From NCBI RefSeq assembly GCF_900089605.1, contig NZ_LT594324.1, positions 1,488,001-1,552,000 of the forward strand: DNA of 64,000 nucleotides, given 5' to 3'. The stretch's first letter is position 1. The number at the start of each line of letters is the position of its first letter. A program made the translations under genes and the position numbers. The notes under the pieces are model-generated. The model saw only the letters and a list, made by a program, of their open reading frames with translations, was not told where the DNA came from and searched no databases. This DNA comes from Micromonospora narathiwatensis. GTDB lineage: Bacteria; Actinomycetota; Actinomycetes; Mycobacteriales; Micromonosporaceae. Of this stretch, positions 47,156 through 64,000 are shown piece by piece.

Positions 47156-47283
47156 CGACCGGCACCGCCGGACGCCCCACGCGGGCGTCCGGCGGTGCGC
47201 GCCCGAGCGTGCCGCATGAGCCCGTTTCCGGCGGGTACGCGCAATCCGAAGGCAGCTCCACCCGGGAACGGAGGTGAACCGGA

Positions 47284-47406
47284 ATGAAGGTACGAAGCTC
47301 ACTGCGCGGGCTGAAGCGGAAGGTCAACTCGATCGTGGTACGCCGTCGAGGCAAGGTCTTCGTGCTCAACAAGGCGGATCCCCGGCAGAAGGCCCGACAG
47401 GGCTGA
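47284..47406 (+). CDS. rpmJ: Ribosomal protein L36, zinc-free (C-minus) form
   Basis: 40 residues ([20 protein letters not shown] then [19 protein letters not shown]), ATG 47284 preceded by GGAGG. Typical L36 has a C-x2-C-x12-C-x4-H zinc ribbon; here all zinc ligands are gone, marking the YkgO-like paralogue that replaces the zinc form under zinc starvation. It stands alone between secreted hydrolase genes, away from the ribosomal operons. I did not see a clear Zur box in the 130 bases upstream. Confidence 0.93.
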
Positions 47407-47444
47407 CCGGGCGGGAAACACAGCTCAGGCAGTTGTTTTTGGAC

Positions 47445-47463
47445 TTTTCACAAGAGGTGAAAA
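47445..47463. repeat. AT-rich stem-loop downstream of rpmJ
   Basis: TTTTCAC (47445-47451), AAGAG and GTGAAAA (47457-47463) form a perfect 7-bp stem in an unusually AT-rich stretch. It may be a terminator for rpmJ or an operator. Confidence 0.4.
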
Positions 47464-47526
47464 AAGGCGGGCGAGAGCGCCGAAGCCATTGACATATGCC
47501 ACTGCGACAGGGAATCTCCACCCGAC

Positions 47527-47562
47527 CGGACGGGTGTCCGCGACACCGCGGACACCCGTCCG
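47527..47562 (+). terminator. Long hairpin between rpmJ and the discoidin gene
   Basis: A 16-bp perfect stem, CGGACGGGTGTCCGCG (47527-47542) with its complement at 47547-47562 and an ACAC loop, lies 120 bases after rpmJ and 33 bases before the next start. It could end rpmJ transcription or act in the leader of the next gene. Confidence 0.6.
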
Positions 47563-47595
47563 TCATCCCGGCTCCCCACCGCCACGGAGATGCCC

Positions 47596-50184: not shown

Positions 50185-50193
50185 TCCGGCCGT

Positions 50194-50294
50194 GGGCGGC
50201 GCGGTCGCCGCGCCGCCCCCGACCGCCGGGGCCACCGCCCCGACCCGCGCCGGGTCAACGTCCGGCGGCGGCCCACGCCGGGCCGCCGCCGGAC
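50194..50294. terminator. Two hairpins between convergent secreted-enzyme genes
   Basis: GGGCGGCGCGG/CCGCGCCGCCC (50194-50218, TCG loop) and GTCCGGCGGCGGCCC/GGGCCGCCGCCGGAC (50260-50294, five-base loop) are perfect stems. They probably terminate the discoidin and GH5 genes respectively. Confidence 0.75.
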
Positions 50295-50301
50295 GAACCG
50301 G

Positions 50302-51765
50302 TCAGCTGGTGGGGAAGTTGTCCGGGGTACGGATGCGGCTGCGCATGTAGTTCCCCGACGTGGTCAGGTTCGCCGTGCCGGCGTACTGGCCGCCGGCGCA
50401 GGTGCCCGGCCGGAACGCGGCGCTGCCCTCGTTGGCGTCGGAGTACGTCCAGTTCGCGTAGCTGATCTTCAGCCGGTCGAGCAGGTCGAGCCAGGCGTTG
50501 CTGCTGGCCGTGTCGACCGCCCCGTCGCCGGTGTAGGTGACGGTGCCGAACTCGGTGACGAACAGCGGGATCCGGGACGCGGCCCGCTGCACCTCGTTGC
50601 GGTAGTTGTCCTTGTGCGACGCGGCGTAGAAGTGGAACGTGTACATGATGTTGCTGGCCCGGACCGGGTTGTTGACAATCTCGTCGGAGTTGCCGCCCTC
50701 GGAGACGCCCAGGGACGACCAGCCGCGGGTGCCGACGAGGACGACGGCGTCCGGGTGGTTGGCCCGGATGACCGGGATCACCTGCTCGGCGTAGTTCTTG
50801 ATGGTGGTCCAGCTGACGCCGTTCGGCTCGTTGGTGATCTCGTAGATCACGTTCTTCTTGCCGGCGTTGCGGGCCGAGACCGCGGCGAAGAAGGTCTTCG
50901 CCCGCTCCAGGTTGTACGTCGGGTCACCGGGCGTCAGGGTGTGGAAGTCGATCAGCGCGTACATGCCGCGCGCCGTGGCCTTGTCCACCAGGTTGTTGAC
51001 CTGGTTGGTGAAGCCGGTCGGGTTGGTCTCGTAGCCCTGCTCCTGCACGTACATGGAGATCCGCAGCAGGTCGGCCTGCCAGTCGTTGGCGAGGGCGTCG
51101 AGCGAGGCGTCGTTGTAGCAGTTGGCGAACCACTGCAACCCGTGGGTGCTCATGCCGCGCAACTGGATCGGCCGGCCGTACTGGTTGCAGAGGTTGACCC
51201 CGCAGACGCGCAGCTGGCCGTTGATGGCCGCCGGGGTGGTGCCGGTCGGCGGCGGAGTGGTCGGCGGCGGGGTCGTCGGCGGGGGCGTGCTGGGCGGGGG
51301 AGCGGTGGTCGGCGGCGGCGTGCTGGGCGGGGTGGTGGTGCTGCCGGTGCAGGTCGTGCCGTTGAGGGTGAACGCGGTCGGGGCCGGGTTGGCGGTGGTC
51401 CAGGTGCCGTTGAAGCCGACGGTGGTGCTCGCCCCGGTGGCCAGCGCGCCGTTGTAGTCGAGGCTCTTCGCGGTGACCGCGCTGCCGCTCTGCTGGAAGG
51501 TCGCCGACCAGCCCTGGGTGACGCGCTGCCCGGAGTTGGGGAAGGTGAAGCCGAGCGTCCACTGGTTCACCGGGTCGCCCAGGTTCTTGATGGTGATGTT
51601 GGCGGTGAACCCGCCCTGCCAGTCGTTGGTCGTGTAGGTGACGGCGCAGCCGGTCGCGGCCATGGCGTTGGTCGACGGCAGCAGGGCCGCCCCGGCCAGG
51701 GCGAGCGTGCCGACGGCGCCGGCCGCGAGCAGGGAGCGCCGTGACGGGCGCGGAATCGTGGTCAT
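50302..51765 (-). CDS. Secreted GH5 endoglucanase with N-terminal CBM2
   Basis: 487 residues from ATG 51765. The twin-arginine-type signal (PRPSRRSLLAAGAVG ... AMA) suggests Tat export. A family 2 cellulose-binding module (about 38-140) has GCAVTYTTNDWQGGFTANIT and a closing Cys. A Pro/Thr linker (PPSTPPPTTAPPPSTPPPTT) follows, then a GH5_2 catalytic domain (about 180-487): LRGMSTHGLQWF, LLRISMYVQEQGY, acid/base Glu in VIYEITNEPNGVSW, YTFHFYAASHK, and nucleophile Glu in PLFVTEFGTV. It cleaves internal beta-1,4-glucan bonds of cellulose. A CebR-type operator is 85 bases upstream. Confidence 0.95.
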   Translation of the reverse strand: MTTIPRPSRRSLLAAGAVGTLALAGAALLPSTNAMAATGCAVTYTTNDWQGGFTANITIKNLGDPVNQWTLGFTFPNSGQRVTQGWSATFQQSGSAVTAKSLDYNGALATGASTTVGFNGTWTTANPAPTAFTLNGTTCTGSTTTPPSTPPPTTAPPPSTPPPTTPPPTTPPPTGTTPAAINGQLRVCGVNLCNQYGRPIQLRGMSTHGLQWFANCYNDASLDALANDWQADLLRISMYVQEQGYETNPTGFTNQVNNLVDKATARGMYALIDFHTLTPGDPTYNLERAKTFFAAVSARNAGKKNVIYEITNEPNGVSWTTIKNYAEQVIPVIRANHPDAVVLVGTRGWSSLGVSEGGNSDEIVNNPVRASNIMYTFHFYAASHKDNYRNEVQRAASRIPLFVTEFGTVTYTGDGAVDTASSNAWLDLLDRLKISYANWTYSDANEGSAAFRPGTCAGGQYAGTANLTTSGNYMRSRIRTPDNFPTS

Positions 51766-51849
51766 GCGGGATCGTCCCATCTGGTGGGTGGTGGTGAGTC
51801 ATGGCGGTGCCGTCGCGAACTCGCCCGGACAGTCCGGCGCGGCAAGCCT

Positions 51850-51907: not shown

Positions 51908-52642
51908 TTACGCCTTGACCGCCTTGACGATGGCGGGGATGGAACCGATCAGCAGGACCAGCGCCCAGACGACCGCCACCACGGCGAAGACCAGCGCGCC
52001 GAGGTCGTCGGTGATGCTGACCAGGATCACCGGCACCAGCCGGTGCAGGAACTCCAGCACCACCGTGCACAGCAGCGTGGTCAGCGCCAGCAGCACCAGG
52101 CCCTTGTTCTGGACGAAACGCGGCTGGGCGAGCAGCAGCAGGCCGGCCCAGACCAGCTTCAGCAGCAGCACCAGGCCGAGCAGCACGCCCGCGTCGCCGA
52201 CCGGGAAGAACCCCCACACCACCAGGTACGCCAGCGTGCCGAACGGCGCCGCCAGGAAGAGCGAGACCATCACGGTCAGCTCGACGAAGGCCACGATCAG
52301 CAGGACCACCGACACGATCAGCAGCACGATCGAGAAGACCAGGGTGGCCGCGCCCTGCACCCGGCCCTGGACCCGTTCCGGCACCACCAGGCTCAGGCAG
52401 AACAGCCCGGTGGTCCAGAGCGCCACCACGTCGATCAGGGCCAGGTGACCGGTGCCCCGGCCGGAGGGCTGGGCGACCCGCCCGACGTCATCGAGTTCCA
52501 CGCCGAGCTGGCCGGCGCTGTCCCGCAGCGCCCCGCCCGCGTCGCCGCCGCCGGTGAGCAGCGCCGCGCCCAGTTCCAGCCCCACCACCAGGGCCACCGC
52601 GAGCAGCGCCAGCAGCAGGAACGGTCTGCGCAGCTCACCCAT
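51908..52642 (-). CDS. Polytopic membrane protein at the 3' end of the eCIS operon
   Basis: 244 residues with about six hydrophobic segments (LLLALLAVALVVGLELGAAL, TLVFSIVLLIVSVVLLIVAF, and others). An early loop (about 32-62) is Gly/Asp-rich and predicted outside the membrane. No family recognised. It lies 30 bases downstream of the 158-residue gene on the same strand, so it probably belongs to the injection-system transcript. Whether it serves the particle is unknown. Confidence 0.65.
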   Translation of the reverse strand: MGELRRPFLLLALLAVALVVGLELGAALLTGGGDAGGALRDSAGQLGVELDDVGRVAQPSGRGTGHLALIDVVALWTTGLFCLSLVVPERVQGRVQGAATLVFSIVLLIVSVVLLIVAFVELTVMVSLFLAAPFGTLAYLVVWGFFPVGDAGVLLGLVLLLKLVWAGLLLLAQPRFVQNKGLVLLALTTLLCTVVLEFLHRLVPVILVSITDDLGALVFAVVAVVWALVLLIGSIPAIVKAVKA

Positions 52643-52672
52643 GGCGTACCTCCGGGCCGGGCGGCCTCACGG

Positions 52673-53149
52673 TCAGGACCGGGCGACGACGACCGTGCAT
52701 CCGCCACCTCCCGGGCAGGTCAGGACGACGTCGACGGCCCGGTCCACGGCCACCCGCGCCAGCGCCGTACCGTCCGCGCCGGGCGTCACCTCGTCGTGCA
52801 CGGTGACGTCGGCGTCGCCGGGCGCGGTAGCGGTCACCACGAACGGCGCCCGGCTGCGCAGCACCAGGCTGCGCAGCCCGCCCGGGTCGGCGACCCGCAG
52901 CAGGCAGCCGGAGGTGAAGGCGACCACCGTGCCCTCGGCGGACGCGGTCGGCGGTGCGGCGGGCGGCACGCAGTCGGCGGTGACCGTGGCCGGGTCGACC
53001 GTGGCGGCGCGACCGCCGAGCCGGCCCAGCCAGCCGGGCCCGGCGGTCGGATCCCCCCGATCGTGCCGGCCCCCGGCCGCCGCTACCAGGTACAGCGCCG
53101 CCAGCAACCCGGCCAGCGCCGCCAGCAGGACCTTCTGCCGTCCGCTCAT
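52673..53149 (-). CDS. Membrane-anchored hypothetical protein in the eCIS operon
   Basis: 158 residues. One N-terminal helix (VLLAALAGLLAALYLVAAAG) is followed by an extracytoplasmic region of about 130 residues with three Cys (TADCVPPAAPP, TSGCLLRVADP, LTCPGGGGC) and a beta-rich pattern. The start overlaps the stop of the upstream bitopic gene (ATGA). It could be a small beta-sandwich on the outer face of the membrane. No family recognised. Confidence 0.65.
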   Translation of the reverse strand: MSGRQKVLLAALAGLLAALYLVAAAGGRHDRGDPTAGPGWLGRLGGRAATVDPATVTADCVPPAAPPTASAEGTVVAFTSGCLLRVADPGGLRSLVLRSRAPFVVTATAPGDADVTVHDEVTPGADGTALARVAVDRAVDVVLTCPGGGGCTVVVARS

Positions 53150-54066
53150 GGCTGTAGGAGCTGGGTGAACCGGAGCTGGTCGACGCCGGCGTAGTACCGG
53201 TCGGTGCCCTGTGTCTTGCCCACCACCGCCAGGGTGACCTGGTGCGGACCCTTGACCAGGGTGAGGGTGGCGACGTCGATCCAGTCGGTGCGTACCACGG
53301 TGGGGGTGAAGCCGAAGAACGGTTCCCCGACCTGTCGGCCGTCCACCAGGAAGACGGTGTTGGCGTAGTCGTAGGACGTGGTGCGTACCGTCGAGAAGCG
53401 CCAGGTGCCGTCGACCGGGAGATTCACGGTGACCGTCACCCGGTCACCGACGGCCCGCCCCTGGAAGAACAGCTGGGCGTCGCCGGACCAGGTCACCCCG
53501 CAACAGTTCGGCTGGGCGACCACCTCGGCCTTGACGCCGGTCGACTCGACCGCCGCGCCCGACACCAGGCTCTCCGCCTCCACGGTCACCACCTCGGCCC
53601 GGGGCGGCGGCGCCGGAGGCTCGCCGTCCCGGGAGACCAGCCAGACCACCACCCCGGCCACCACCAGCACCAGCGCCGCCGCGGCCGCCAGCCACGGCCA
53701 CGGCGTGCGCTTCGGGGGTACGACCGCCTGCACGTCGTACGTCACCCGGCCGCTGGAGCGGGAACTCTCCTCCGGCGCGGTGTTCGCCGAGTACGCGAAC
53801 CCGGTCATGTCGTAGCGCCGGGGCGGGGTGCCCGCCGGCACGGCCAGTCGGACCAGGAACGAGACCGAACCCTGCCCGGGCACCACCCGCTGGGGTTCGG
53901 CGACGGTGAACCAGGCGCGCTGACCGCCCTCGCCGGGTGCCACGTCGAAGACCACGGTGTCCGGGGCCCGGCCCGGGTTGGAGACGGTGAAGGTCAACTC
54001 ACCGCTGTTGCGGGCGTCCAGGGTGAACTGCCCGGCGGCGGCGACGACGGCCCATTCGGTGGTCAT
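53146..54066 (-). CDS. Bitopic membrane protein with a carbohydrate-binding-like domain
   Basis: 306 residues from ATG 54066 (ATGA overlap with the gpI-like gene). Residues 1-115 read as an Ig-like/NEW3-type beta-sandwich (GELTFTVSNPGRAPDTVVFD; FLVRLAVPAGTPPRRYDMTG). A helix at about 121-143 (PWPWLAAAAALVLVVAGVVV) is the only membrane segment. The C-terminal 150 residues resemble a CBM6/35-type module (VTVEAESLVSGAAVESTG at its start, YYAGVDQLRF at its end). With no signal peptide, the N-terminal domain is probably cytoplasmic and the CBM-like domain outside. Coupling to the baseplate genes suggests a membrane anchor for the particle. Confidence 0.75.
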   Translation of the reverse strand: MTTEWAVVAAAGQFTLDARNSGELTFTVSNPGRAPDTVVFDVAPGEGGQRAWFTVAEPQRVVPGQGSVSFLVRLAVPAGTPPRRYDMTGFAYSANTAPEESSRSSGRVTYDVQAVVPPKRTPWPWLAAAAALVLVVAGVVVWLVSRDGEPPAPPPRAEVVTVEAESLVSGAAVESTGVKAEVVAQPNCCGVTWSGDAQLFFQGRAVGDRVTVTVNLPVDGTWRFSTVRTTSYDYANTVFLVDGRQVGEPFFGFTPTVVRTDWIDVATLTLVKGPHQVTLAVVGKTQGTDRYYAGVDQLRFTQLLQP

Positions 54067-54668
54067 GACGGCTCCTCGGTGGACGACACGGGCGGCGGGG
54101 ACGGGACCCGGGCGCGGCCGATCGCCGGCCCGCTCGGCAGCGGCGGGTCCGCGTCCGCGCCGGATTCGGCGGCGGTCACCTCGACGGTCACCGCGGCGGG
54201 CTTCTCCGCCTCGACGATCCGGGTGATCAACGCGAGCTGGTCGGCGGCGGCCGGCGGCACCCGGACCAGCAGGTGGAAGGGCCGGTCCGCCGGCTCGTCC
54301 AGCACGAAACCGGTCACCCCGGTGGCCAGCTCCAGCGCGGTGCGCATCCCGTACGGGGTGCCCCGCCACCGGGCCAGCAGCGCCCCGTGCGCGACCAGGT
54401 CCCGCAGCCGGCCCAACGGCAGCGGCAGCGGCGTGTCCGCCCGGGGCGCGGCGACCACGTGGTCCAGCGCCACCCACCGGGTCAGGTACGCCACGAACCC
54501 GTCCCGCGTCCGGTACGGCCCGAACAGCGCGTCGACGTCGGCCAGCACCGCCTCGTCCGGGGCGTGCAGGGTCTCCATCACGTCCAGCAGCGCGCCCAGC
54601 ACGCTGCCCGGCCCGGCGGCCCGCTGGTACGCGGCGGGCAGCAGCCGCTCAATCGCCGTTCGGCGCAT
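54063..54668 (-). CDS. Phage tail protein gpI-like baseplate component
   Basis: 201 residues. It opens RLLPAAYQRAAGPGSVLGAL and has LDVMETLHAPDEAVLADVDA, LFGPYRTRDGFVAYLTRWVA and GTPYGMRTALELATGVTGFV, the pattern of the P2 gpI/Afp12 tail family that seals the baseplate with gpJ. The last 40 residues are Pro/Ala-rich. It overlaps the gpJ-like gene by 20 bases at its start and the bitopic gene at its end, so all are coupled. Confidence 0.85.
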   Translation of the reverse strand: MRRTAIERLLPAAYQRAAGPGSVLGALLDVMETLHAPDEAVLADVDALFGPYRTRDGFVAYLTRWVALDHVVAAPRADTPLPLPLGRLRDLVAHGALLARWRGTPYGMRTALELATGVTGFVLDEPADRPFHLLVRVPPAAADQLALITRIVEAEKPAAVTVEVTAAESGADADPPLPSGPAIGRARVPSPPPVSSTEEPS

Positions 54669-57315
54669 CCTGCCGCACCACCTCGATGTCGTGCTCGCCG
54701 GAGCAGAGCAGCCAGGTCCCGGGCACGGTGACCACGTCGGCGGTGGCCTGGTTGGCGCTGGCCGTCCAGTCGACGGCGTCGCCGCTGCGATACACCCCGC
54801 GCTCCCCGCCGGCGAGGATCAACCGGTCGGCGCCGTCAGCGCCGGCGGACGGCACGGTGGCCGCGATCGCGTCGACCGGCACGAACCTCGTCCGATCCCG
54901 CAGCGGCAGCCCGCAATTGACCATCACCGGCTGCCACTGCGGCTGGGCCGCGAGGGTGTCCAGCCGGACCACCCCGCCGCTCTGCGTGGCGGCGAGCGCC
55001 AGCGTGCCGCTGAACGCGAGGTCCCGGCAGGTGCCGCCGATCCAGCCGGCCGGCACGCCCTGCCACCGGACGTCCGACTCGAACAACCGGGTCCGGTGGC
55101 AGCCCTGACCGGGCTTCTTCGGGTCCGGCTCGCCGGCGCCGCTCCAGAGCAGGGTGGCCGGTCCGTCGTACTGGACGGCGAGGACCCGGTTGTCCACGTT
55201 GGCCAGGCCCACGTGGCCGAAGGTGCCGGGCCGGCCGGCGGCGGTGGACAGGTAGACCCCGAAGCCGGCCTGCGCGGCCACCGCCACGCCGGGCGCGCCG
55301 CGCTCGGAGACGAACGCCCGGACGGCGTAGAAGCCGCGGTCGGCGTCGGCGGGGTCGACCAGGATCTGCAACGGCACCGACCCGGGCAGCAGGGAGACCT
55401 CGAACAGGCCGGTGTCGGTGGCGAGCAGCAGCGCCCCCGCGCCGTCCCGGTCGATCCAGGCCAGATCCTGCACCCGGGAGTCCAGGTCGGTCAGCAGGGT
55501 CCAGGTCTCGCCGAGGTCGGTGCTCAGGCGTACCCGGGAGCCACCGGAGTCGCGGGTGGTGACCACGGCCACCGAACCGGCCCGGGCCACGATGCCGGGG
55601 CGGACCGGGGCCGGCGCCGGGACCACCCGGACCACGCTCTCGTCGTCGAACCGGCCGGCCGGCTCCCAACCCGCCCCGGCGTCGGTGGAGCGGAACAGCA
55701 CCGGGCCGCGCCCGGCGTACCAGGTCCCCGGCTGGTACTGGTCCACGGCGACGGTCCGGACCTGCGCGTCGGGCGCCTCGTCGACCACGAACCGGACCGA
55801 CTCGACGTACCGCACGCCCGGCTCGGCGTGCTCCAGCATCCGGTACACGTTGGACGCCCGCAGCGGCTCGCCGAACGCCCAGCCGGACGGGTTGAGCGGG
55901 GTCGGCAGCGGGCTGAGCGTCTGGTGCAGCCGGTCGTGGATGCGGCGGCGGACCGCGTCCACGTCCTCCTCCCGGCGGACCACCACCCGGGCCCGGACGG
56001 AGACCGCCTTGTACCGGGCCCACCCGGCCCGTACCGCGGTGCCCAGCGCGCGGCGTCGCTCCAGGTCGGCCTCCACCCGCCGGCGGGCCTCCTCGACCTC
56101 GTGCTCGCGCAGCACGTCCACCGGCAGCCGGCCGCCGGGGCGGGCCTGCTCCGGCACGTACGGCACCAGCACCACCTCGACCTCGCCGGGGCGGGCGAAG
56201 CTGTAGACGGCGGCGCGGGTGAACGCCCTTGCCCGGGCCACCGCCCCGGAGCCGGCGGCGAGGATCTCGTAGTCGCGGGCGGTGACCGCGCGCTGCTGGG
56301 CGAAGAACTCGTACGGCCCGCGCGCGAGGGCCGACTCCAGCGACTCCAGGTCCCGGCCGCCGCCGGCCGGCTCGGGATTGTCCACCCGCAGCCCGGGCAG
56401 CGGGTCGCGCAGGCTGGTCAAGGTTCCCGCGGCCACGTTCCCGGCCGGCCCGCCCCCGCTGCGGTACCAGAGCCGGATCTGCCGGCCGGCCGGCGGCACC
56501 GCCGCCACGGTCGTCGGCCCGGGCGCCCCCTCGACGCCCGGGCCGGCAACCGCGTCCAACGCGCCCGGGCCGGCAGCCGCGTCCGGTGCGGCCGGCGGGC
56601 GCAGGTCCAGCGCCGGGGCGAAGGTGACCACCCCGGAGGCCCGGTCGACCAGGTAGACCTTGGCCTGCGGGCCGACGCCGGCGAAGCTGTCCACCGGCCG
56701 CCAGATCTCGTACGTGCGTCCCTCGTGCTCGCGGGCCGCCGCGCCCAACTCCACCGAACCGGTCGGCACCTCCACCCCGAGCAGCAGGTCCAGCGCCTCG
56801 GCGGTACGGGTCAGCGGCGCCCGGTCCGCCCGGAACACCTGGCCGGCCTGGCCGGTGCCGGTGCCGAGCAGTTCCGCCTCGACCGGCTCGCAGTGGTGCA
56901 CGCGTACCGTGACCTCCGTGTCCCCGGCGGGCAGCAGGGCCGGCTCGGTGGTGACGAAGACGACCGGCCGGGGGTCGGCGCCACGGGCGGCGGCGACCCG
57001 GGTGCCGGCGGGGACGCGTACCGCGCCCCGGTCCGGGCCGGTCCGGCTGAACCGGACGTCCGCCCAGGCGGCGGTGGGCGGGTGCCGGGTCACCCCGAGC
57101 AGGTTGAGGAACGCGACGTACGCCTTCTCCGGCAACTGGTTCAGCCGGTAGATCATCACCTCGGTGAGGTACGCGAACGCCTCCAGCAGCGCCATCCCCG
57201 GATCGTGCGCGGAGAGGTCCGTCCAGTCCGGGCAGGACCGGCGGATCCGTTCCCGCGCCTCGGTGACCAGGTCGAGGAAGGCGCGGTCGTCGAGATGCGG
57301 CACCGGCAGCGTCAT
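54649..57315 (-). CDS. Baseplate J-like protein with C-terminal Asp-box beta-propeller
   Basis: 888 residues from ATG 57315 (ATGA overlap with gp25). The first 510 residues match gpJ-like baseplate assembly proteins: RIRRSCPDWTDLSAHDPGMA, LLEAFAYLTEVMIYRLNQLP and VTARDYEILAAGSG. The last 370 residues contain Asp-box repeats (RSTDAGAGWEP near 538-548, STDLGETWTLL near 595-605, VYRSGDAVDWTAS near 840-852) with LLLATDTGLFEV and LALAATQSGGVVRL strands. This indicates a sialidase/Vps10-type beta-propeller. Such a propeller is not part of the phage gpJ fold and may add binding surface to the baseplate. Confidence 0.88.
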   Translation of the reverse strand: MTLPVPHLDDRAFLDLVTEARERIRRSCPDWTDLSAHDPGMALLEAFAYLTEVMIYRLNQLPEKAYVAFLNLLGVTRHPPTAAWADVRFSRTGPDRGAVRVPAGTRVAAARGADPRPVVFVTTEPALLPAGDTEVTVRVHHCEPVEAELLGTGTGQAGQVFRADRAPLTRTAEALDLLLGVEVPTGSVELGAAAREHEGRTYEIWRPVDSFAGVGPQAKVYLVDRASGVVTFAPALDLRPPAAPDAAAGPGALDAVAGPGVEGAPGPTTVAAVPPAGRQIRLWYRSGGGPAGNVAAGTLTSLRDPLPGLRVDNPEPAGGGRDLESLESALARGPYEFFAQQRAVTARDYEILAAGSGAVARARAFTRAAVYSFARPGEVEVVLVPYVPEQARPGGRLPVDVLREHEVEEARRRVEADLERRRALGTAVRAGWARYKAVSVRARVVVRREEDVDAVRRRIHDRLHQTLSPLPTPLNPSGWAFGEPLRASNVYRMLEHAEPGVRYVESVRFVVDEAPDAQVRTVAVDQYQPGTWYAGRGPVLFRSTDAGAGWEPAGRFDDESVVRVVPAPAPVRPGIVARAGSVAVVTTRDSGGSRVRLSTDLGETWTLLTDLDSRVQDLAWIDRDGAGALLLATDTGLFEVSLLPGSVPLQILVDPADADRGFYAVRAFVSERGAPGVAVAAQAGFGVYLSTAAGRPGTFGHVGLANVDNRVLAVQYDGPATLLWSGAGEPDPKKPGQGCHRTRLFESDVRWQGVPAGWIGGTCRDLAFSGTLALAATQSGGVVRLDTLAAQPQWQPVMVNCGLPLRDRTRFVPVDAIAATVPSAGADGADRLILAGGERGVYRSGDAVDWTASANQATADVVTVPGTWLLCSGEHDIEVVRQDAPNGD

Positions 57316-57755
57316 GAGCTTCCCTCCTCGGCGTGGTCCTCGGGGTCCTCGTCGGGCAGCAGGTCGACCGGGAAGACGAGCTGCCCGGGGGAGAGGCTGG
57401 CCCGGACCCGGTAGTCCAGCCGGATCACCAGCCGCCACGGATCGTCCGGGTCGGGCCCGGCGTCCACGTCGATCACCTCGACCCGGGGCTCCCAGCGCCG
57501 GATCGCCTGCCGGACGTAGTGGATGGCAAGGCCGGCCGTGGTGTCGTCGTTGGGCGCGAAGACCAGCCGGTGCAGCCGGGAGCCGTACCCGGGGCGCATC
57601 AGCCGCTCGCCGGGTGTGGTCGACAGCAGCAGGAAGAGCGCCTGGCGTACCGTCTCGTCGCCCTCGGTCATGGCGAGCCCGCCGGCGGCGGTCAGCGCGA
57701 GACCGCCGGTGCGACCCGCGTCGAAGCCGGCGCCCACGAAGCGGAAGGCCCTCAT
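57312..57755 (-). CDS. gp25-like baseplate wedge protein
   Basis: 147 residues. GPW/gp25 signature: LAMTEGDETVRQALFLLLST, TPGERLMRPGYGSRLHRLVF, IHYVRQAIRRWEPRVEVIDV and LVIRLDYRVRASLSPGQLVF. T4 gp25/Afp9 proteins start sheath assembly at the baseplate. Four-base overlaps with both neighbours (gpJ-like and PAAR-like genes) show coupling. Length is slightly above the usual 110-140 residues because of an acidic C-terminal tail. Confidence 0.92.
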   Translation of the reverse strand: MRAFRFVGAGFDAGRTGGLALTAAGGLAMTEGDETVRQALFLLLSTTPGERLMRPGYGSRLHRLVFAPNDDTTAGLAIHYVRQAIRRWEPRVEVIDVDAGPDPDDPWRLVIRLDYRVRASLSPGQLVFPVDLLPDEDPEDHAEEGSS

Positions 57756-58090
57756 CCGTCCGCCCCCAGGAAGGTCTGCCGCGGGTCGCGGACGGTGTGG
57801 TGGACCGACCCGGGCGGGGTGCCGTCGGTGCGGCCGTCCAGGTTCGACAGCACCACCCGGTGCCCGTCGACCCGCAGCCACGCGCTGTAGCCGACGGTCA
57901 CGCCGAGGGTCTTGGCGCAGGGCTTGATGGTGGGGCCGTAGTTCGGGCAGCCGCCGATGTCCCGCCCCTCGGGGTCGGCCTCGACGAGCACCGGGACGCC
58001 TTCGACGGTCAGCCACTGCTGCGACGCGCGGTTGGCGATCCGGCCGCCGTGGTCACAGGTGATCAGCGAGTCGCGGTGGATCCAACGCAT
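57752..58090 (-). CDS. PAAR-like spike tip protein
   Basis: 112 residues. The N-terminus (SLITCDHGGRIANRASQQWL, then VEGVPVLVEADPEGRDIGGC and PNYGPTIKPCAKTL) has paired His/Cys ligands and Gly turns like PAAR-type beta-cone tips. The rest (YSAWLRVDGHRVVLSNLDGR) is beta-rich. Its position between spike and gp25 fits a needle tip that caps the VgrG-like trimer. The family assignment is by position and style, not by a strict PAAR match. Confidence 0.7.
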   Translation of the reverse strand: MRWIHRDSLITCDHGGRIANRASQQWLTVEGVPVLVEADPEGRDIGGCPNYGPTIKPCAKTLGVTVGYSAWLRVDGHRVVLSNLDGRTDGTPPGSVHHTVRDPRQTFLGADG

Positions 58091-59661
58091 CAGCCACCTC
58101 CCTGGGCGCGGACGAGGGTGCGGGCCTGGGCGGCGGCGGTGTCGGCGTCCTCGGCCGCCTCGGCCCGCCGGAAGTCGACGGTCCGGGCGCGGACCACCAT
58201 GGCCCGACCGGGAGCGGAGAGCACCAGGTCGCCGGCCGCGTGCACGGTGGTCAGCTCGGGTCGCAGCTCCACGAAGCTGCCCGCGTCGGTGGCCAGCCGC
58301 AGGGTGCGGCCGTCGTCGTCGATGACGATCGACTGGCCGGTGCCAGTCCGCATCGACCAGCGCCGCGACCGCCCCGCCACGATCCCCGCGTCGTACGGCT
58401 CGACGGCACCGAACAGCGAGCCGAGCACGATCCCCGCCGCCGGTTCGCCGCCGGGCAGCGCCACCAGCACGGTGTCGTCCGGGTCGGGCAGCGCGACGAT
58501 GCCCTTGCCCCGGCCCGCGCCCGGGCAGACCACGGCCAGCCAGCCGGCGTCCAGGTCTCCGTACGCGGGCAGCGTCACCCGGGCCCGGCCCAGCCCGTCG
58601 GGGTCGTCGACGTCGGTGACCGTGCCCAGGGTGACCGTGGCCGGGGCGGGCGCGGCGGCCGGCGGCGGTGCCGGCGGGGCGGTGGAGAAGCGGGTCAGGT
58701 GGCCGTTCGCGTCGACCGTGTGCACCACCTCGGTGAGCACGTACACCCCGGCGACCGGGCCGGGTACGCCGGCCAGGGCGATCCGCCGGCCGGGACGCAG
58801 CGCCGGGTCGCCCTCGGCCGTGCCGTCGGCGGTGACCAGCGCGGCGACCCGCGCGTCCAGCCCGGCCTGGGCCAGCGCGGCCAGCTCGTCGTCGCTGCGC
58901 CCGGGCTGGTCCACGGCGGTCCGTACGCCGTCCGCGCCCACCTCGCCCGGCTCGGGGCGCAGCGGGACGTGCCGGCCGGAGCGCGCCTCGGTGGCCTGCT
59001 GGCGCAGCGGCTCGGCGCGCTGCGGGTGCCAGCCGAGCGCGGCGCACTCCCCGCCGGCCCGGTCCAGGTTCTCCGCGATCCGCACCGCGTGCACGGTGTC
59101 GCCGAGGGTCAGCGGGACCGGCTCGCCGTACCCGTCGAGGGTCAGCAGCCGCAGCCGGTCGCCGTCCACAGCCAGGTGCAGCCCGGCCCGGCCGGTGACC
59201 TCACGCAGCAGCTCCAGGTCGGTGTGCCGGTGCTGGAGCAGCCGGTCCAGGCGCGGCCCGTCGGCGTCCGCGTCGACGGTGAGCCCGAGATCGGCGCAGA
59301 GCGCCCCGGCCAGGTCGGCGGCCGTCACCGACTCGAAGACCCGCAGCTCCTGCCGCTTGCGCAGCCGGTGCAGCGGGTCGTACGCCCGGATCCGCAGCTC
59401 GGCGGCGCCATCGGCGGCGTACGCCACCTCGACGCCGGTGACCTCGCCGGTGAACAGGGCGTCCGGCTGGCCGTCCAGGCGCACGTCGAGGGCGGCGCCG
59501 GGGCGTACCGGCGGGTCGAGGGCGGCGCTGCCCGGCGCGGTGGCGAGGGTGAGTTCGCACTGGGTCGGCTGGTCGAGGCGGGCGGCGACCCGTACCCCGC
59601 GCAGCCGTCGGCCGTCGGCCAGCGGGGTGCCGTCGATCGTCACGGTGACGGCCCGGTTCAC
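58090..59661 (-). CDS. VgrG-like spike protein (phage late-control D plus gpV parts)
   Basis: 523 residues from GTG 59661. The N-terminal 320 residues are a phage D/gp27-like hub (LTLATAPGSAALDPPVRPGA; LFTGEVTGVEVAY; IRAYDPLHRLRKRQELRVFE). An Ala/Pro linker is followed by a gp5-type OB fold (VTLGTVTDVDDPDGLGRARV; AGWLAVVCPGAGRGKGIVAL, then DPDDTVLVAL) and a short beta-helical tail. It forms the central trimeric spike pierced by the contracting sheath. Its GTG start overlaps the stop of the 43-residue gene. Confidence 0.93.
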   Translation of the reverse strand: MNRAVTVTIDGTPLADGRRLRGVRVAARLDQPTQCELTLATAPGSAALDPPVRPGAALDVRLDGQPDALFTGEVTGVEVAYAADGAAELRIRAYDPLHRLRKRQELRVFESVTAADLAGALCADLGLTVDADADGPRLDRLLQHRHTDLELLREVTGRAGLHLAVDGDRLRLLTLDGYGEPVPLTLGDTVHAVRIAENLDRAGGECAALGWHPQRAEPLRQQATEARSGRHVPLRPEPGEVGADGVRTAVDQPGRSDDELAALAQAGLDARVAALVTADGTAEGDPALRPGRRIALAGVPGPVAGVYVLTEVVHTVDANGHLTRFSTAPPAPPPAAAPAPATVTLGTVTDVDDPDGLGRARVTLPAYGDLDAGWLAVVCPGAGRGKGIVALPDPDDTVLVALPGGEPAAGIVLGSLFGAVEPYDAGIVAGRSRRWSMRTGTGQSIVIDDDGRTLRLATDAGSFVELRPELTTVHAAGDLVLSAPGRAMVVRARTVDFRRAEAAEDADTAAAQARTLVRAQGGG

Positions 59662-59789
59662 GGCGTACCTCCGTTCGCGCGGTCGGCCGGCGGGGCGGTC
59701 ACGGCGGGGGCGGCCCCGGTCGTGCGTTCGGCCGGCGTGGCGGTCACGGCGGGGGCTGGCCCGGTGGCGGCGGGCCGCATCGCGGTCAC
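59658..59789 (-). CDS. 43-residue repeat peptide nested between tube and spike genes
   Basis: A 44-codon frame from GTG 59789 overlaps the upstream stop (GTGA) and ends in TGA overlapping the spike GTG (GTGA), so translation could pass through three genes in series. The peptide is Ala/Pro/Thr-rich with a repeated unit (PAPAVTATPAERTTG, then AAPAVTAPPADRANG). No family recognised. The exact double overlap and codon use support a real small gene, but a low-complexity linker remnant is possible. Confidence 0.6.
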   Translation of the reverse strand: MTAMRPAATGPAPAVTATPAERTTGAAPAVTAPPADRANGGTP

Positions 59790-60541
59790 GGTGCGCCTCC
59801 CGGCCCGCCGGGTCCGTCGGGTGGTGTGGCGGCGGTGAGCGGCGGGACGGCCAGCGCGGCGCCGGCCGGCACGGTCAGCGGGTCGCCGATCCGGTTGTGC
59901 TCGGCGAGCAGCCGCCAGCGCAGCGGCGAGCCGAGCGCGTCATGGGCGAGCAGGTCGAAGCGCACCCCCGACCAGCCCGGCTCGGCCGCGCCGTCGGCGG
60001 CGGCGACCACCGCCGAGCCCGGCGGCAGCGGGGTGCTCGCGGCGGCCAGCTCCTCCTCGAACCCGGCTCGGGCCGCCTCGCCGGACTCGGCCACCCGGAC
60101 CAGCTTCAGCCGCAGCCAGGAGCGGCGCGGCGTGCCGGTGCGGGTGAACCCGTCGAAGCGTTCCGCGATCGCCACGATGACCCCGGGCACGTTCCAGGTC
60201 TTGCCCCAGACCAGGCGGACCAGCGGGGGCCGCAGCCAGCCGTGCTCGGTGGCGGAGTTCTCCGCCAGCAGCCACAGCGGACGGGTGAGGGTGCGGACGT
60301 CCTCGGGGCGTACCTGGGACTCCACGAAGTCGGTGTCGAAGAGCAGGTCGAGGACGAGTTCGGTGCGCCCGCCGCCGGTGAAGACCAACGGGTCGTCGGC
60401 CAGCCCGGCGCCGGTGAGCGCGCCGCCGGCGGCGCCCCGGGGGCGTACCCCGGCCAGCCGGGTGACCTGCACGGTCTCCGGGTTGAGCAGGCAGTCCACC
60501 CGGGTGCCGGACTCGTCCACGAGGAAGGCCACCCGTTCCAT
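59786..60541 (-). CDS. Tube-associated LysM-type protein (Afp7-like)
   Basis: 251 residues. The N-terminus VAFLVDESGTRVDCLLNPET and a middle DTDFVESQVRPEDVRTLTRP match the contractile tail tube initiator/Afp7 family. ARPPLVRLVWGKTWNVPGVI-like strands follow, and the C-terminus holds a LysM-like stretch (WRLLAEHNRIGDPLTVPAGA). In other systems it connects the tube to the baseplate hub. The start overlaps the stop of the repeat-rich gene by one base; the end overlaps the 43-codon gene (GTGA). Confidence 0.85.
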   Translation of the reverse strand: MERVAFLVDESGTRVDCLLNPETVQVTRLAGVRPRGAAGGALTGAGLADDPLVFTGGGRTELVLDLLFDTDFVESQVRPEDVRTLTRPLWLLAENSATEHGWLRPPLVRLVWGKTWNVPGVIVAIAERFDGFTRTGTPRRSWLRLKLVRVAESGEAARAGFEEELAAASTPLPPGSAVVAAADGAAEPGWSGVRFDLLAHDALGSPLRWRLLAEHNRIGDPLTVPAGAALAVPPLTAATPPDGPGGPGGAP

Positions 60542-61977
60542 CAGGCGCCCGCCTGTTCCCGGTCCAGCCGGCGCAGGTGCCCGGCGTCCGGCACGCCCGT
60601 CACCGGTGCCCACAGCTCCCGGTCGTCGGGCAGCGCCGGCCAGGGATCCCGCCGGCCCTCACCCCGGGGTACGTCGTGGACCTCGTCGGGCAGCGCCGGC
60701 CACGGCCCGGCGTCCGGCCCGCGCCACTCCGGGCGGCCCGGTGCGCCCCGGCCAGCCGGGCCGGTTCCGCCGGTGCCGGCCGACGCGGCGGGCGGGTTCG
60801 GGTGCGGTCGTGGTCCCTGGCGCGGCGACAACCGGACCCGAGGGTCCGCCGAGCCGGCCGGGGCGAGCCCGGAGCCCGGCGAACCCGGCCCGAGGCCGTG
60901 CGGGCGGCCGATCTCCGGTGGGTCCGTCCACACCGCGGGATCGCCGGGCCGGAGCCGTGGGCCGGCGGGTGCGGGTCCGGTCGCCTCGACGCGGGGTCCC
61001 CGTTGCACCTGGGCGGAATCGCCGAGGGCCCGCCTTGGCCGGCGTACCTCCGGCCCGGTGCCCGCGGTGCTGGCGTACCCCGGTCCGTCGGGGTCGGCAC
61101 CCGGCGGGGCTCCGCGTCGGGCCGCCGCGTCGATGGTCGGGGCTCCGGGCGGGCTGGTCGTCGTGGCCGCAGCGCCGGGCCGGGGTTGCCCGGCGGCGGT
61201 GTCGGGTCCGGTACCGGAGCCGGGCCGGAGGCGCCGGCGGAACGTGCGGGCGCTGACGGAGGCGGACGCCGCTCCGTCGGGCGCCGACGCCGGCCCGCCA
61301 CCCCGGGCGGCGCCGTCCGGGTGGCCGCGCGTCGCAGCGGCGCCGTCCGGGTGTCCGTGGGCCGTGGCCGTGCCGTCCGGGCGGCGGTGGGTCGCGGTCG
61401 CGCCGTCCCGGTGGCGGTGGGTCGCGGCGGTGCCGTCCGGGTGGCGGTGGGTCGCGGCGGTGCCGGTCTGGGCGGGGCGTCGGGGCGAGCCGGGGGCGGA
61501 TGGCCGTAGCGGCAGTTCCCGGGTGACGACGACGGGTTCCCCGCCGGGGTCGACGCCCGCTCCGTGGTCACGCGGGCGGAGCCGTCCGGACCGGCCGTGG
61601 TCGCGGCCCGGGTCGTCCCGGCCCGGCCCGGCGGCCCCGTCTCCCGCACCGGCCGGCCCGGCCCCGGCGCCGTTCCCCGCCGCCCCACCCTCGTCGATCA
61701 GGAGGATCGCGTCGTCCAGGAGCCCGGAGCCGACGGAGACGTCCGGCTCGGCCGGACCGGGGGGCAGGTCGCGGAGGAGGCCGGGTGCGTGGGCGGCGAC
61801 CAGGCGGAGCCAGTGCTCGGGGGGTTCCCCCGGGCGGCGGGGGCGAGGCGGCTCCGCGCGTTCCGGCGCCGCGCCCGGTGGCGGCGGGGCCAGCGCGCGG
61901 GCGAGACGGTCGGCCGTGGCGGCGGCCCGGCGCAGGGCACGGGCCAGCCGGTCACGGGGCGGTCGGGGCGGGCGCAC
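60541..61977 (-). CDS. Repeat-rich, disordered eCIS-linked protein of unknown function
   Basis: 478 residues from GTG 61977, overlapping the tube gene end by 26 bases. The first 95 residues are ordered: ALRRAAATADRLARALAPPP, WLRLVAAHAPGLLRDLPPGP, and GSGLLDDAILLIDEGG. Residues 170-220 are five decapeptide repeats of the type ATHRHPDGTA. The rest is Pro/Gly/Arg-rich. The C-terminus has two PWPALPD(E/D) motifs (about 435-442 and 455-462) and ends DAGHLRRLDREQAGA. This layout of a folded head, a flexible arm and short terminal motifs looks like a scaffold or length-ruler protein. No family recognised. Confidence 0.7.
   Translation of the reverse strand: MRPPRPPRDRLARALRRAAATADRLARALAPPPPGAAPERAEPPRPRRPGEPPEHWLRLVAAHAPGLLRDLPPGPAEPDVSVGSGLLDDAILLIDEGGAAGNGAGAGPAGAGDGAAGPGRDDPGRDHGRSGRLRPRDHGAGVDPGGEPVVVTRELPLRPSAPGSPRRPAQTGTAATHRHPDGTAATHRHRDGATATHRRPDGTATAHGHPDGAAATRGHPDGAARGGGPASAPDGAASASVSARTFRRRLRPGSGTGPDTAAGQPRPGAAATTTSPPGAPTIDAAARRGAPPGADPDGPGYASTAGTGPEVRRPRRALGDSAQVQRGPRVEATGPAPAGPRLRPGDPAVWTDPPEIGRPHGLGPGSPGSGLAPAGSADPRVRLSPRQGPRPHPNPPAASAGTGGTGPAGRGAPGRPEWRGPDAGPWPALPDEVHDVPRGEGRRDPWPALPDDRELWAPVTGVPDAGHLRRLDREQAGA
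61315..61470 (-). repeat. Tandem 30-bp repeats inside the 478-residue gene
   Basis: About five units of 30 bases, with cores such as GTGGCGGTGGGTCGCGGCGG (plus strand), encode the decapeptide ATHRHPDG(T/A)A. Copies at 61411-61440 and 61441-61467 are nearly identical; outer copies are more divergent. Confidence 0.8.
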
Positions 61978-62434
61978 TGCCGGACTCCAGCTCCAGCCCC
62001 TCGTACGCCAGGGTCAGCGCCTCGATGGCGATCTCCTGCGCGAGGGTGTTCAGGTGCGCGCCCCGCCACCGGGTCGGCCACGCGTTGATCATGTTCCAGC
62101 GCAGCATCTCGGCCGTGCCGGCCGGGTCCAGCAGCACCACCGAGACGTTGCGCCGGCTGACCGTCCCCTTCGCCGCCGCGTTCACCCAGTCCCACAGCTC
62201 GCGGGACGAGGTGAGGCCGAAGTGGAGGGTCACCGGGGCGTACTCGACCTGCCCCGGAACGGACCGGATCCGCTCGTTGCCGGCCTCCCGGTACGCCAGC
62301 GACGGAATGGTCACCTCAAGCCCGCTGACCTCCGTGAAGTGCCCGTTCGTGACCCCGTTGATGAGCAGCTTGAAGTGGTAGGCCCGGTACGGGTCGACGG
62401 GCGTGCCCGGTTGCGGGGTGGCCGTGGTCGGCAT
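61952..62434 (-). CDS. Contractile-system inner tube protein
   Basis: 160 residues. T4 gp19/Afp1-like tube signature: YRAYHFKLLINGVTNGHFTE, VSGLEVTIPSLAYREAGNE, VTLHFGLTSSRELWDWVNAA and EALTLAYEGLELE. It forms the rigid hexameric tube inside the sheath. It starts one base after the sheath stop, so the pair is strictly co-translated. Confidence 0.93.
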   Translation of the reverse strand: MPTTATPQPGTPVDPYRAYHFKLLINGVTNGHFTEVSGLEVTIPSLAYREAGNERIRSVPGQVEYAPVTLHFGLTSSRELWDWVNAAAKGTVSRRNVSVVLLDPAGTAEMLRWNMINAWPTRWRGAHLNTLAQEIAIEALTLAYEGLELESGSAPAPTAP

Positions 62435-62435
62435 G

Positions 62436-63677
62436 TCAGCCTCCGATCGTGTCGGTCTCGGTGCCGCCGGCCCACTGGCTCAGCTTGAACACCACGAACT
62501 CCGCGGGCTTGACCACCGCGATGCCGATGTGCGCGACGACCATGCCGGCGTCGCGGACGTCGGCCGGGTTGGTCTCCTCGTCGCACTTGACGAAGAACGC
62601 CTCCTCCGGCGTACGTCCGAGCAGCGCGCCGTCGCGCCACACACGGGTGAGGAACGCGCCGATGTCGCGGCGGATCGAGCGCCAGAGCGTGTAGTCGTTC
62701 GGCTCGAAGACCATCCACCGGGTGCCGTTGGCGATGGCCTGCTCGATGGCGATGGAGAGCCGCCGGACGTTGAGGTATCGCCACTCGCTGGCTTCGGCGG
62801 CGAGGGTACGGGCGCCCCAGAGCCGGATGCCCTCGCCGGCGAAGTAGCGGATCACGTTGACGCCCTTGGGGTTGAGCACGTCGTGCTCGGGGCGGGTGAC
62901 CCGGCAGGCGAGGTCGACCGCGCCGCGTACCGGCTCGTTGGCCGGGGCCTTGTGCACGCCGCGCAGCGCGTCGGTGCGCGCCCAGATGCCGGCCACGTGC
63001 CCGCTCGGCGGGGTGAGTACCAGCTCGCCGGTGAGCGGGTCGCGTACCTTGATCCACGGGAAGTAGAAGGTGGCGAAGTCCGACTGCCGGGGCCGGTACG
63101 CGGCCGGCCCGTCGTCGTCGGGCTTGGGCGTGCCGTCGGCGGGTTTCGGCGTGCCGTCGGCCGGTTTGCCGGACGGCCGCGCCGAGCCCGGCGTGGCGAC
63201 CCGGGTCAGCGTGGAGACGTCGTCCACGTCCGGGGGCGGGTCGCAGATCGCCACCATGGTCCGCAGCCGCTCGGCCATGCTGATCAGCGCCTCGTGGGAC
63301 ACCGGGTCGTGGTAGCCGGGGGCGGCCAGGATGGAGACCTCGTCGACGGCCTCCAGCAGTTGCAGCCCGCTGCGCCGCCCGCCGGCGCCGGTGAGCTGGC
63401 CGCCCGCGCCGACGTTGACCACCCAGCACCGGGTGCCCCCGTTGTCGAGGAAGCCGAACACCGCCCGCGCCAGCGGGGTGCTCGCCAGGTGCTCGCCGTC
63501 GGCGTACAGCCGGAGGAACTCCGACCAGCTGTTGATCGCGAGGGCCTGGCCGACGTGCGCGGTGGGGTCCGGCGCGACCCCGACGAAGGCGGCGGTGCTG
63601 GTGCCGGCCGGCCCGATCGGGCGGGCGCCGCTGGGCACCTCCTCCACGTATATGCCGGGGGAGAAGTAGGTGGGCAT
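62436..63677 (-). CDS. Contractile tail sheath protein
   Basis: 413 residues. Sheath signature at both ends: YFSPGIYVEEVPSGARPIGP, TSTAAFVGVAPDP and GTRCWVVNVGAGGQ at the N-terminus; VNVIRYFAGEGIRLWGARTL, WRYLNVRRLSIAIEQAIANG, WMVFEPNDYTLWRSIRRDIG and FFVKCDEETNPADVRDAGMV at the C-terminus. The middle (about 165-190) carries a Lys/Pro/Asp repeat (KPADGTPKPADGTPKPDDDG) likely exposed on the particle. Length is short compared with phage sheaths, as usual for eCIS. Confidence 0.95.
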   Translation of the reverse strand: MPTYFSPGIYVEEVPSGARPIGPAGTSTAAFVGVAPDPTAHVGQALAINSWSEFLRLYADGEHLASTPLARAVFGFLDNGGTRCWVVNVGAGGQLTGAGGRRSGLQLLEAVDEVSILAAPGYHDPVSHEALISMAERLRTMVAICDPPPDVDDVSTLTRVATPGSARPSGKPADGTPKPADGTPKPDDDGPAAYRPRQSDFATFYFPWIKVRDPLTGELVLTPPSGHVAGIWARTDALRGVHKAPANEPVRGAVDLACRVTRPEHDVLNPKGVNVIRYFAGEGIRLWGARTLAAEASEWRYLNVRRLSIAIEQAIANGTRWMVFEPNDYTLWRSIRRDIGAFLTRVWRDGALLGRTPEEAFFVKCDEETNPADVRDAGMVVAHIGIAVVKPAEFVVFKLSQWAGGTETDTIGG

Positions 63678-63702
63678 CGGGTCCTCCTTGGGGCGGTCCG
63701 GC

Positions 63703-64000
63703 TCAGTCGGGGGCGCAGACGATGACGAGGTCGGGGTCGGCGGGGTCGAGGTCGGCGGTGAAGGTGCGGCCCCGGCCGAGCAGCCGGACCCGGACCGGCC
63801 GGCCCGGGTCGTCCGGGTCGTGGGGGAGCCCGACCAGCCGGAACCGGCCGGCGCCGTCGGTCCGCGTCGCGTACGGGGTGCCGACCACCTCGACCCGCAT
63901 CGCGGCGAGCGGTTGCCGCTCCGGCCCGACCACGCGGCCGTCGAGGGTGCGCATGCCGAGCTGCCGCAGCCGCAGCGGATGCCGCACGGGCGGCACGGGT
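63703..64000 (-). CDS. eCIS protein with carboxypeptidase-regulatory-like domain, 5' end cut
   Basis: The visible 97 residues contain RTLDGRVVGPERQPLAAMRV, followed by VGTPYATRTDGAGRFRLVGL, the Ig-like fold of carboxypeptidase regulatory domains, ending DLVIVCAPD. The reading frame is still open at the window edge, so it may continue into a longer gene; in related loci this module ends a DUF4255/Pvc16-type protein that caps the sheath. That identification is inference. It lies 25 bases upstream of the sheath gene. Confidence 0.65.
   Translation of the reverse strand, partial: PVPPVRHPLRLRQLGMRTLDGRVVGPERQPLAAMRVEVVGTPYATRTDGAGRFRLVGLPHDPDDPGRPVRVRLLGRGRTFTADLDPADPDLVIVCAPD

Follow-up and report, generated by a model that had tools for sequence, protein, structure and literature searches.

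The DNA analysed here is a stretch of 64,000 nucleotides from Micromonospora narathiwatensis (bases 1488001-1552000 of a complete, single-contig genome of 6.6 Mb), hereafter the window, and its positions 51908-64000 are occupied by the operon of a contractile injection system (CIS). Gene models place all of the genes on the minus strand, as a first-pass annotation of the same DNA had stated, in the order sheath, tube, X, CIS_tube adaptor, VgrG, PAAR-like protein, gp25, gpJ, gpI, M3, M2 and M1, with the last gene, M1, ending at 51908. That annotation also had nearly all neighbouring genes overlapping by 1-26 bases. Eight of the 11 junctions from sheath to M1 do overlap: tube/X by 26 bases, gpJ/gpI by 20, PAAR/gp25, gp25/gpJ, gpI/M3 and M3/M2 by 4 each, and X/adaptor and VgrG/PAAR by 1 each. 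The other three are gapped (sheath/tube, 1 base; adaptor/VgrG, 124; M2/M1, 30). The components that define a CIS in the broad sense, namely the sheath, gp19-type tube, spike, gp25 and J, all have Pfam matches, and the locus is a CIS operon, not a prophage. A prophage, already set aside on first inspection, is rejected because the Pfam scan of eight flanking genes returned no head, packaging or integrase family (further genes were judged by coordinates and first residues) and because one conserved type recurs across 73 genomes of the genus.

The contractile sheath (62436..63677; 413 aa; Pfam 4e-17) has the solved chain 8bky as its nearest structural relative (1e-105) and, in alignment, lacks the surface domain III stretch found in canonical sheaths. 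The single tube gene of the operon is of gp19 kind (61952..62434; PF06841, 3e-35), scoring above cut-off for TIGR02241 and below it for the CIS5 and CIS1 families. The tube-baseplate adaptor (59786..60541) is of CIS_tube type (PF19266, 8.7e-12); it had been described as a tube-associated LysM protein, for which no Pfam LysM match was found. The VgrG-like spike or hub (58090..59661) carries PF04717 (Phage_base_V, 4e-18) and PF05954 and matches the solved structures 7aef and 9gtr. The adjoining tip candidate of 112 aa (57752..58090) is PAAR-like by position, has no relevant Pfam family, and weakly matches (1e-4) a short protein that follows gp25 at another CIS locus, G095b. The gp25 sheath initiator or wedge protein (57312..57755; PF04965, 7e-25) has an additional TssE-like match below cut-off, and the gpI-like wedge (54063..54668) is recognised by PF09684 (Tail_P2_I, 1.5e-4), with TIGR02242 and the CIS12 family below cut-off. 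Pfam evidence supports each of the earlier assignments of sheath, tube, VgrG-like protein, gp25, gpJ and gpI.

Between tube and adaptor lies X (60541..61977), a Pro/Ala/Gly-rich protein of 478 aa that belongs to no known family and is probably disordered. Two middle proteins had originally been listed as lacking a family; X is one of them, and the other is the PAAR-like protein. Within the genus, the two ends of X show 57% and 52% identity and its middle 29%; the ends are also conserved across loci. Of 9 canonical loci examined, 8 likewise have a long Pro/Ala-rich frame, probably disordered, between the genes for tube and adaptor. Particles of the Streptomyces coelicolor CIS are uniform in length although a tape measure gene is missing (PMC12237407; here and below, statements on published systems refer to the available portions of the papers cited), and a role of the X-slot protein as a length ruler could be looked at.

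The baseplate J protein (54649..57315; 888 aa, Cis11 type; Baseplate_J, 9e-17; TIGR02243, 3.9e-81, above cut-off) departs from canonical gpJ in alignment, having lost ~150 internal residues and gained a BNR/propeller-like C-terminus of ~350 residues. This terminus is picked up by F510_1955 (6e-7, below cut-off) and, over a short stretch, by PDB 3b7f (8e-7), with Pfam BNR at just 0.11. Its identity within the genus is 89%, compared with 87-89% for the core, and, being as conserved as the core, it is unlike a diversifying receptor-binding domain.

Three membrane proteins close the operon, and hydropathy agrees with the first-pass annotation on this point. M3 (53146..54066) has the layout Ig-TM-CBM35: an immunoglobulin (Ig)-like domain, one transmembrane (TM) helix (123-145) and a CBM35/CBM6-like domain whose fold is CBM35-like, and its N-terminus is presumably cytoplasmic. 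M2 (52673..53149) combines an N-terminal TM anchor with a small outer domain, and M1 (51908..52642) is a multi-pass protein; both descriptions come from hydropathy. A single-sequence search of 22 family loci recovered M1 in 20 and M2 in 16, and M1 is present in 10/10 genomes given as carrying the type versus 1/20 genus genomes with no VgrG match (the one being G632). The inheritance of M1 and M3 with the CIS, together with the lack of a Pfam fibre family in the operon (none was sought genome-wide), suggests that the system works bound to the membrane or within the cytoplasm.

These features bear on the first-pass view of the locus as an eCIS-type particle. A classical extracellular CIS (eCIS) would be freed by lysis, use the propeller-like end of gpJ as a built-in fibre and draw its cargo from elsewhere in the genome. 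The parts encoded here are homologous to those of eCIS, and a BNR/propeller-like domain could bind glycans, but the C-terminal region of gpJ is conserved rather than diverse and the co-inherited M1 and M3 are membrane proteins. Moreover, eCIS_core (DUF4157) is absent in 10/10 genomes chosen for a single propeller-type sheath, the host included, and is present in 4/4 canonical-cluster genomes, one of which, G602, has both types. We regard an extracellular particle as improbable, and the original claim finds no support.

To the right of the window, 36 kb were examined for frames and the first 19 kb for gene starts, with coordinates above 64000 prolonging the window into stretch L006. The head of the operon lies here. 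It begins, next to the sheath, with a candidate cap or tail terminator of 226 aa (63703..64000, continuing to 64383; L006:703-1383), assigned from its position: it immediately precedes the sheath in 22/22 family loci, Pfam gives no Pvc16_N (PF14065) match and a CarboxypepD_reg hit below cut-off (2.5e-6), and its profile matches solved structures in part only, over the C-terminal domain (best 1e-4). U1 (64380-64997), a membrane protein with an HExxH (zincin) motif, U2 (65005-65349), a small membrane protein, and an LppM-type lipoprotein (65451-66401) follow, and then unrelated plus-strand genes. The co-directional genes stop 2.4 kb beyond the right edge of the window, and neither an ATPase nor a tape measure is among them. 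Both had been expected there if present at all; for the tape measure, Pfam gave no such family among the operon genes or the eight scanned neighbours, and none was sought genome-wide. On the left, positions 45824-51780 hold CBM2 esterase-like, F5/8-type C and CBM2-GH5 cellulase genes.

The missing ATPase is a feature of the family. A canonical CIS ATPase used as query (L053:320-2503, from G216) has counterparts in 6/9 other canonical loci versus 0/22 loci of the type found here, and in the complete host genome it returned generic AAA matches only (best E 1e-8). One AAA domain lies within the window itself, at 20397-20840 in a 661-residue frame, and matches the query weakly and generically (E 2.5e-6). 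Since the host genome offers generic AAA matches only, the locus falls outside the published description of eCIS regions, which 'invariably' encode an AAA+ ATPase and whose definition also includes a Pvc16_N terminator (PMC10020575). Within Micromonospora, where carriers were defined by a VgrG match of E <1e-200 (73 genomes; at least 20 listed genus genomes are without the type), 59/73 lack the canonical ATPase at E 1e-20. The search for this protein, Cis15, covered 80 genomes (the 73, three g175 genomes, G503, G434, G506 and the control G095) and left out other carriers, G401, G408 and G442 among them. ATPase presence follows sheath number: it is found in 0/58 carriers with a single sheath match and in 14/15 with further sheaths (Fisher p 4e-14, for species that are related to one another), and we attribute the ATPase of those 14 to the additional sheaths their genomes hold. 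Six relatives outside the genus were also compared. The ATPase is present in G452, G503 and G434, which have 2-4 sheath matches each, and in G506, which has one; it is absent in G431 and G471. An ATPase profile hit 0/65 stretches (7.5-22.7 kb) that contain a full propeller-type gpJ.

The first impression of noncanonical parts is borne out, and, as judged from sequence comparison, the operon belongs to a separate lineage that lay beyond the view of the first-pass annotation. We name it propeller-J CIS; M1 is its hallmark. The order cap-sheath-tube-X slot-adaptor-VgrG-PAAR-gp25-gpJ-gpI-M3 is kept in 22/22 family loci, with the exceptions that genes are in pieces in G503 and that an opposite-strand frame is called between gpI and M3 in G642. 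The same operon occurs in two genomes from other classes of the phylum. In a wider scan with a gpJ alignment against named genomes, 65 of the best 80 of 158 relatives have a full propeller-type gpJ, and the other 15 comprise ten of canonical type, all without M1, and five that are truncated or partial. The propeller-ended gpJ, M3 and M1 recur in the same order elsewhere (Actinopolymorpha, Mycobacterium, Methylomonas and metagenome-assembled genomes (MAGs) of other phyla). Named carriers are two Methylomonas, two Actinopolymorpha and Mycobacterium sp. ST-F2; MAG carriers are labelled Gammaproteobacteria (two), Anaerolineae, Verrucomicrobia and Actinomycetes, and such phylum labels, which apply to several of the distant members, can be wrong.

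Two side observations concern the distribution of these loci. One Micromonospora genome without the propeller type, G095, has two other CIS loci (L044/L045), one of them with a 2524-residue frame that matches eCIS_core. In G434, two propeller-type loci (L107 and L108) share a contig; at one of them M3 is followed by a 593-residue protein that bears a DUF4157-like motif, and at the other a CHAT gene precedes the cap.

A midpoint-rooted gpJ tree (41 sequences, 492 columns) gathers all 24 propeller-type members into one clade of support 100, apart from canonical gpJ. The sheath tree, built with a single outgroup, behaves unlike the gpJ tree and nests the family copies among actinobacterial class IId sheaths (seven partial or duplicate sheaths were dropped, reducing 60 to 53, after earlier removal of the G503 fragment). 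The operon might on that evidence be a cytoplasmic CIS of the Streptomyces IId type whose accessory genes were merely lost in this family, and the nearest solved sheath, 8bky, and nearest solved baseplate J, 9gtp, which we take to be S. coelicolor chains, fit such a descent. Yet Gammaproteobacteria, as well as Anaerolineae and Verrucomicrobia MAGs, have the stripped operon too, complete with M1, M3 and the extended gpJ, and the gpJ clade stands apart, so that simple loss within IId appears very improbable. That the locus is a decaying remnant is barely credible: several canonical parts are missing, and sheath and gpJ are in pieces in G503 (L106), but the frames of this operon are intact, and 73 Micromonospora genomes have a VgrG match of E <1e-200.

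Relatives outside Micromonospora and Hamadaea add a further recurrent neighbour. Among 18 distinct propeller-type loci of these relatives with the cap in view, 13 have a gene for a CHAT (PF12770) or caspase C14 (PF00656) protein nearby, compared with 0/18 canonical loci (20 were searched, of which these 18 reach 15 kb or more). The association is significant (Fisher p 4e-6; with genera merged, 10/15 and p 3e-5), for loci that were chosen after the data had been seen, are related and differ in window length (L106-L112, L123, L156, L161, L163, L165, L166, L169, L173, L179, L183 and G954). In 11 loci the protease gene is immediately upstream of the cap or has one or two small genes in between, and in L109 and L123 it is downstream. 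A caspase scan by motif alone returned numerous spurious C14 hits from GC-rich frames, and the proteases found by profile were retained. At 10 of the 13 loci Pfam confirms 11 of the proteins as CHAT or C14, and those of L108, L161 and L179 are identified by the profile alone, which was itself built from such Pfam hits. Seven genomes tested hold 2 to 19 CHAT genes each, a frequency at which chance proximity within 20 kb would be expected at ~0.5 to 4 per cent. In the two Methylomonas loci, L156 and L161, the cap gene borders directly on a caspase C14 frame, with a CHAT frame a short way upstream.

In Micromonospora and Hamadaea the place before the cap is taken by U1, whose HEDVH motif is invariant in 12/12 aligned copies; the distant genome G954 likewise has a U1 relative ahead of the cap. 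Glycine-zipper Pfam hits to U1 fall below cut-off. A protease function of U1 is guessed from the HEDVH motif. The caspase-like neighbours in several relatives hint at a self-killing role.

The reading we prefer, with a probability of about 0.5, is that propeller-J CIS is tethered to the membrane and fires through the envelope of its own producer, perhaps under the control of a protease. Particles would be assembled in the cytoplasm and would dock, baseplate first, on the inner face of the producer's membrane through M1, M3 and the propeller-like end of gpJ, with the Ig-like part of M3 inside and its sugar-binding part in the wall. Release could be triggered by the caspase or CHAT protease at the operon head in some relatives, and perhaps by the HExxH protein U1 in Micromonospora. 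The particle would then fire outward through the cell's own envelope with no AAA+ cargo loading, and the producer would be killed or permeabilised, or the discharge would enter a neighbour. This reading draws on the absence of ATPase and eCIS_core, the constant gene order, the inheritance of M1, the Ig-TM-CBM35 layout of M3, the conserved gpJ terminus and the caspase-clan neighbours. Published parallels are the S. coelicolor CIS, which works within its own cells and depends on CisA (PMC12237407), and the haloarchaeal CIS with its six-TM protein (PMC11566945).

The main rival, which we consider unlikely, is a membrane-docked weapon against neighbours resembling a type VI secretion system (T6SS), with M1 anchoring the baseplate and the spike pushed into a touching cell. 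M1 is multi-pass and co-inherited with the CIS, as such an anchor might be, and the system is carried by Methylomonas, which is Gram-negative. The thick wall of Micromonospora, however, is a barrier that counts against this mode. In addition, no toxin-immunity pair was noticed in the operon, where no dedicated search was made, and the caspase-clan neighbours in relatives suggest control over the producer's own fate. A six-TM protein has been associated with membrane docking of a haloarchaeal CIS (PMC11566945), and this putative anchor speaks for the T6SS-like mode as well as for docking in the preferred reading.

Several observations weigh against membrane-tethered firing through the producer's own envelope. 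An S. coelicolor ATPase mutant makes normal-looking particles and loses the cell-death phenotype (PMC10020575), so a CIS without the ATPase might not kill in that way; with the ATPase needed there for death but not for particle formation, the propeller-J lineage would either load otherwise or contraction itself would be the act. ATPase absence is also imperfectly aligned with sheath number: G506, despite a single sheath match, gives a weak hit to the ATPase (1e-24, 32%), and G564 has three sheaths and no ATPase match. The ATPase profile hits just 2/10 canonical-type stretches, which makes its cross-phylum absence weak evidence alone. M3 shows no profile similarity to CisA, the single-TM protein of S. 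coelicolor, when five CisA-position proteins are compared. The predicted gpJ structure is of low confidence (mean predicted local distance difference test score, 41.7). No caspase-clan gene was found in the searched Micromonospora or Hamadaea stretches, and U1 was rejected as a homologue of DUF4157, with which it has an HExxHxxQxR motif in common, the profile comparison being non-significant (probability 1.5%). A broader version, in which the lineage would have given up AAA+ cargo loading and become a protease-gated suicide device spanning phyla, the contractile counterpart of gasdermin-type pore killing, is rather doubtful.

Among described systems, the S. coelicolor CIS of class IId (PMC10066040, PMC10020575, PMC12237407) has a homologous sheath, J core, gp25, adaptor and spike. 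It functions inside its own cells and requires CisA (PMC12237407), which is described as sugar-binding (PMC10066040). It has no tape measure and no conventional fibre, and no such family was hit in the propeller-J operon. In both systems the baseplate genes are followed by one for a single-TM protein whose outer domain is of sugar-binding type. M3 has the place and layout of CisA, but profiles gave no support for it as a CisA homologue; one weak match (E 0.001, probability 21%) linked it to an Ig-TM protein of canonical type. Unlike the S. coelicolor system, propeller-J CIS has no Cis15-type ATPase and no DUF4157, a single tube gene, a sheath minus the domain III stretch, a gpJ with a propeller-like end, an M3 unrelated to CisA by profile, the extra proteins M1 and M2, and a cap candidate that adjoins the sheath and is co-directional with it. 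The haloarchaeal type VI secretion system (PMC11566945) likewise has a conserved multi-TM protein (Hbor_38620) tied to docking and no tape measure, but the gene list of that paper includes an ATPase in its cluster. In AlgoCIS (PMC13314943, PMC12237407), the Cis11 homologue is also extended, into a cage with two potential carbohydrate-binding modules; AlgoCIS is extracellular and fibre-bearing, and the propeller-J extension is instead BNR/propeller-like. R-type bacteriocins (PMC12210884) similarly do without an AAA+ ATPase but have fibres and a tape measure, whereas propeller-J gave a hit to neither and adds membrane proteins.

The portions of the CIS literature compared, which also include PMC12998442, PMC13277306 and PMC11495950, do not describe the propeller-J lineage, and it may already be catalogued in Chen et al. 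2019. One catalogue filter calls for ten core genes plus one eCIS-specific gene (PMC8213781) and another leaves out fibreless clusters (PMC12923769); such filters could pass over the lineage. Among the papers searched, one joins Micromonospora with a contractile injection system, none joins the CHAT domain or Methylomonas with contractile injection, and none of the listed papers on caspases, judged by title and the start of the abstract, is of this kind.

The earlier interpretation is supported in part, since it was right about a CIS that is not a prophage and wrong about where the ATPase and tape measure would lie. The ATPase has been published as invariable in eCIS, and S. coelicolor is described as needing it for CIS activity (PMC10020575); with a conserved lineage that does without it by nature, its role can be tested by comparison. 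The recurrent pairing with caspase-clan genes in other genera likewise ties contractile machines to programmed cell death in bacteria in a concrete way that can be tested.

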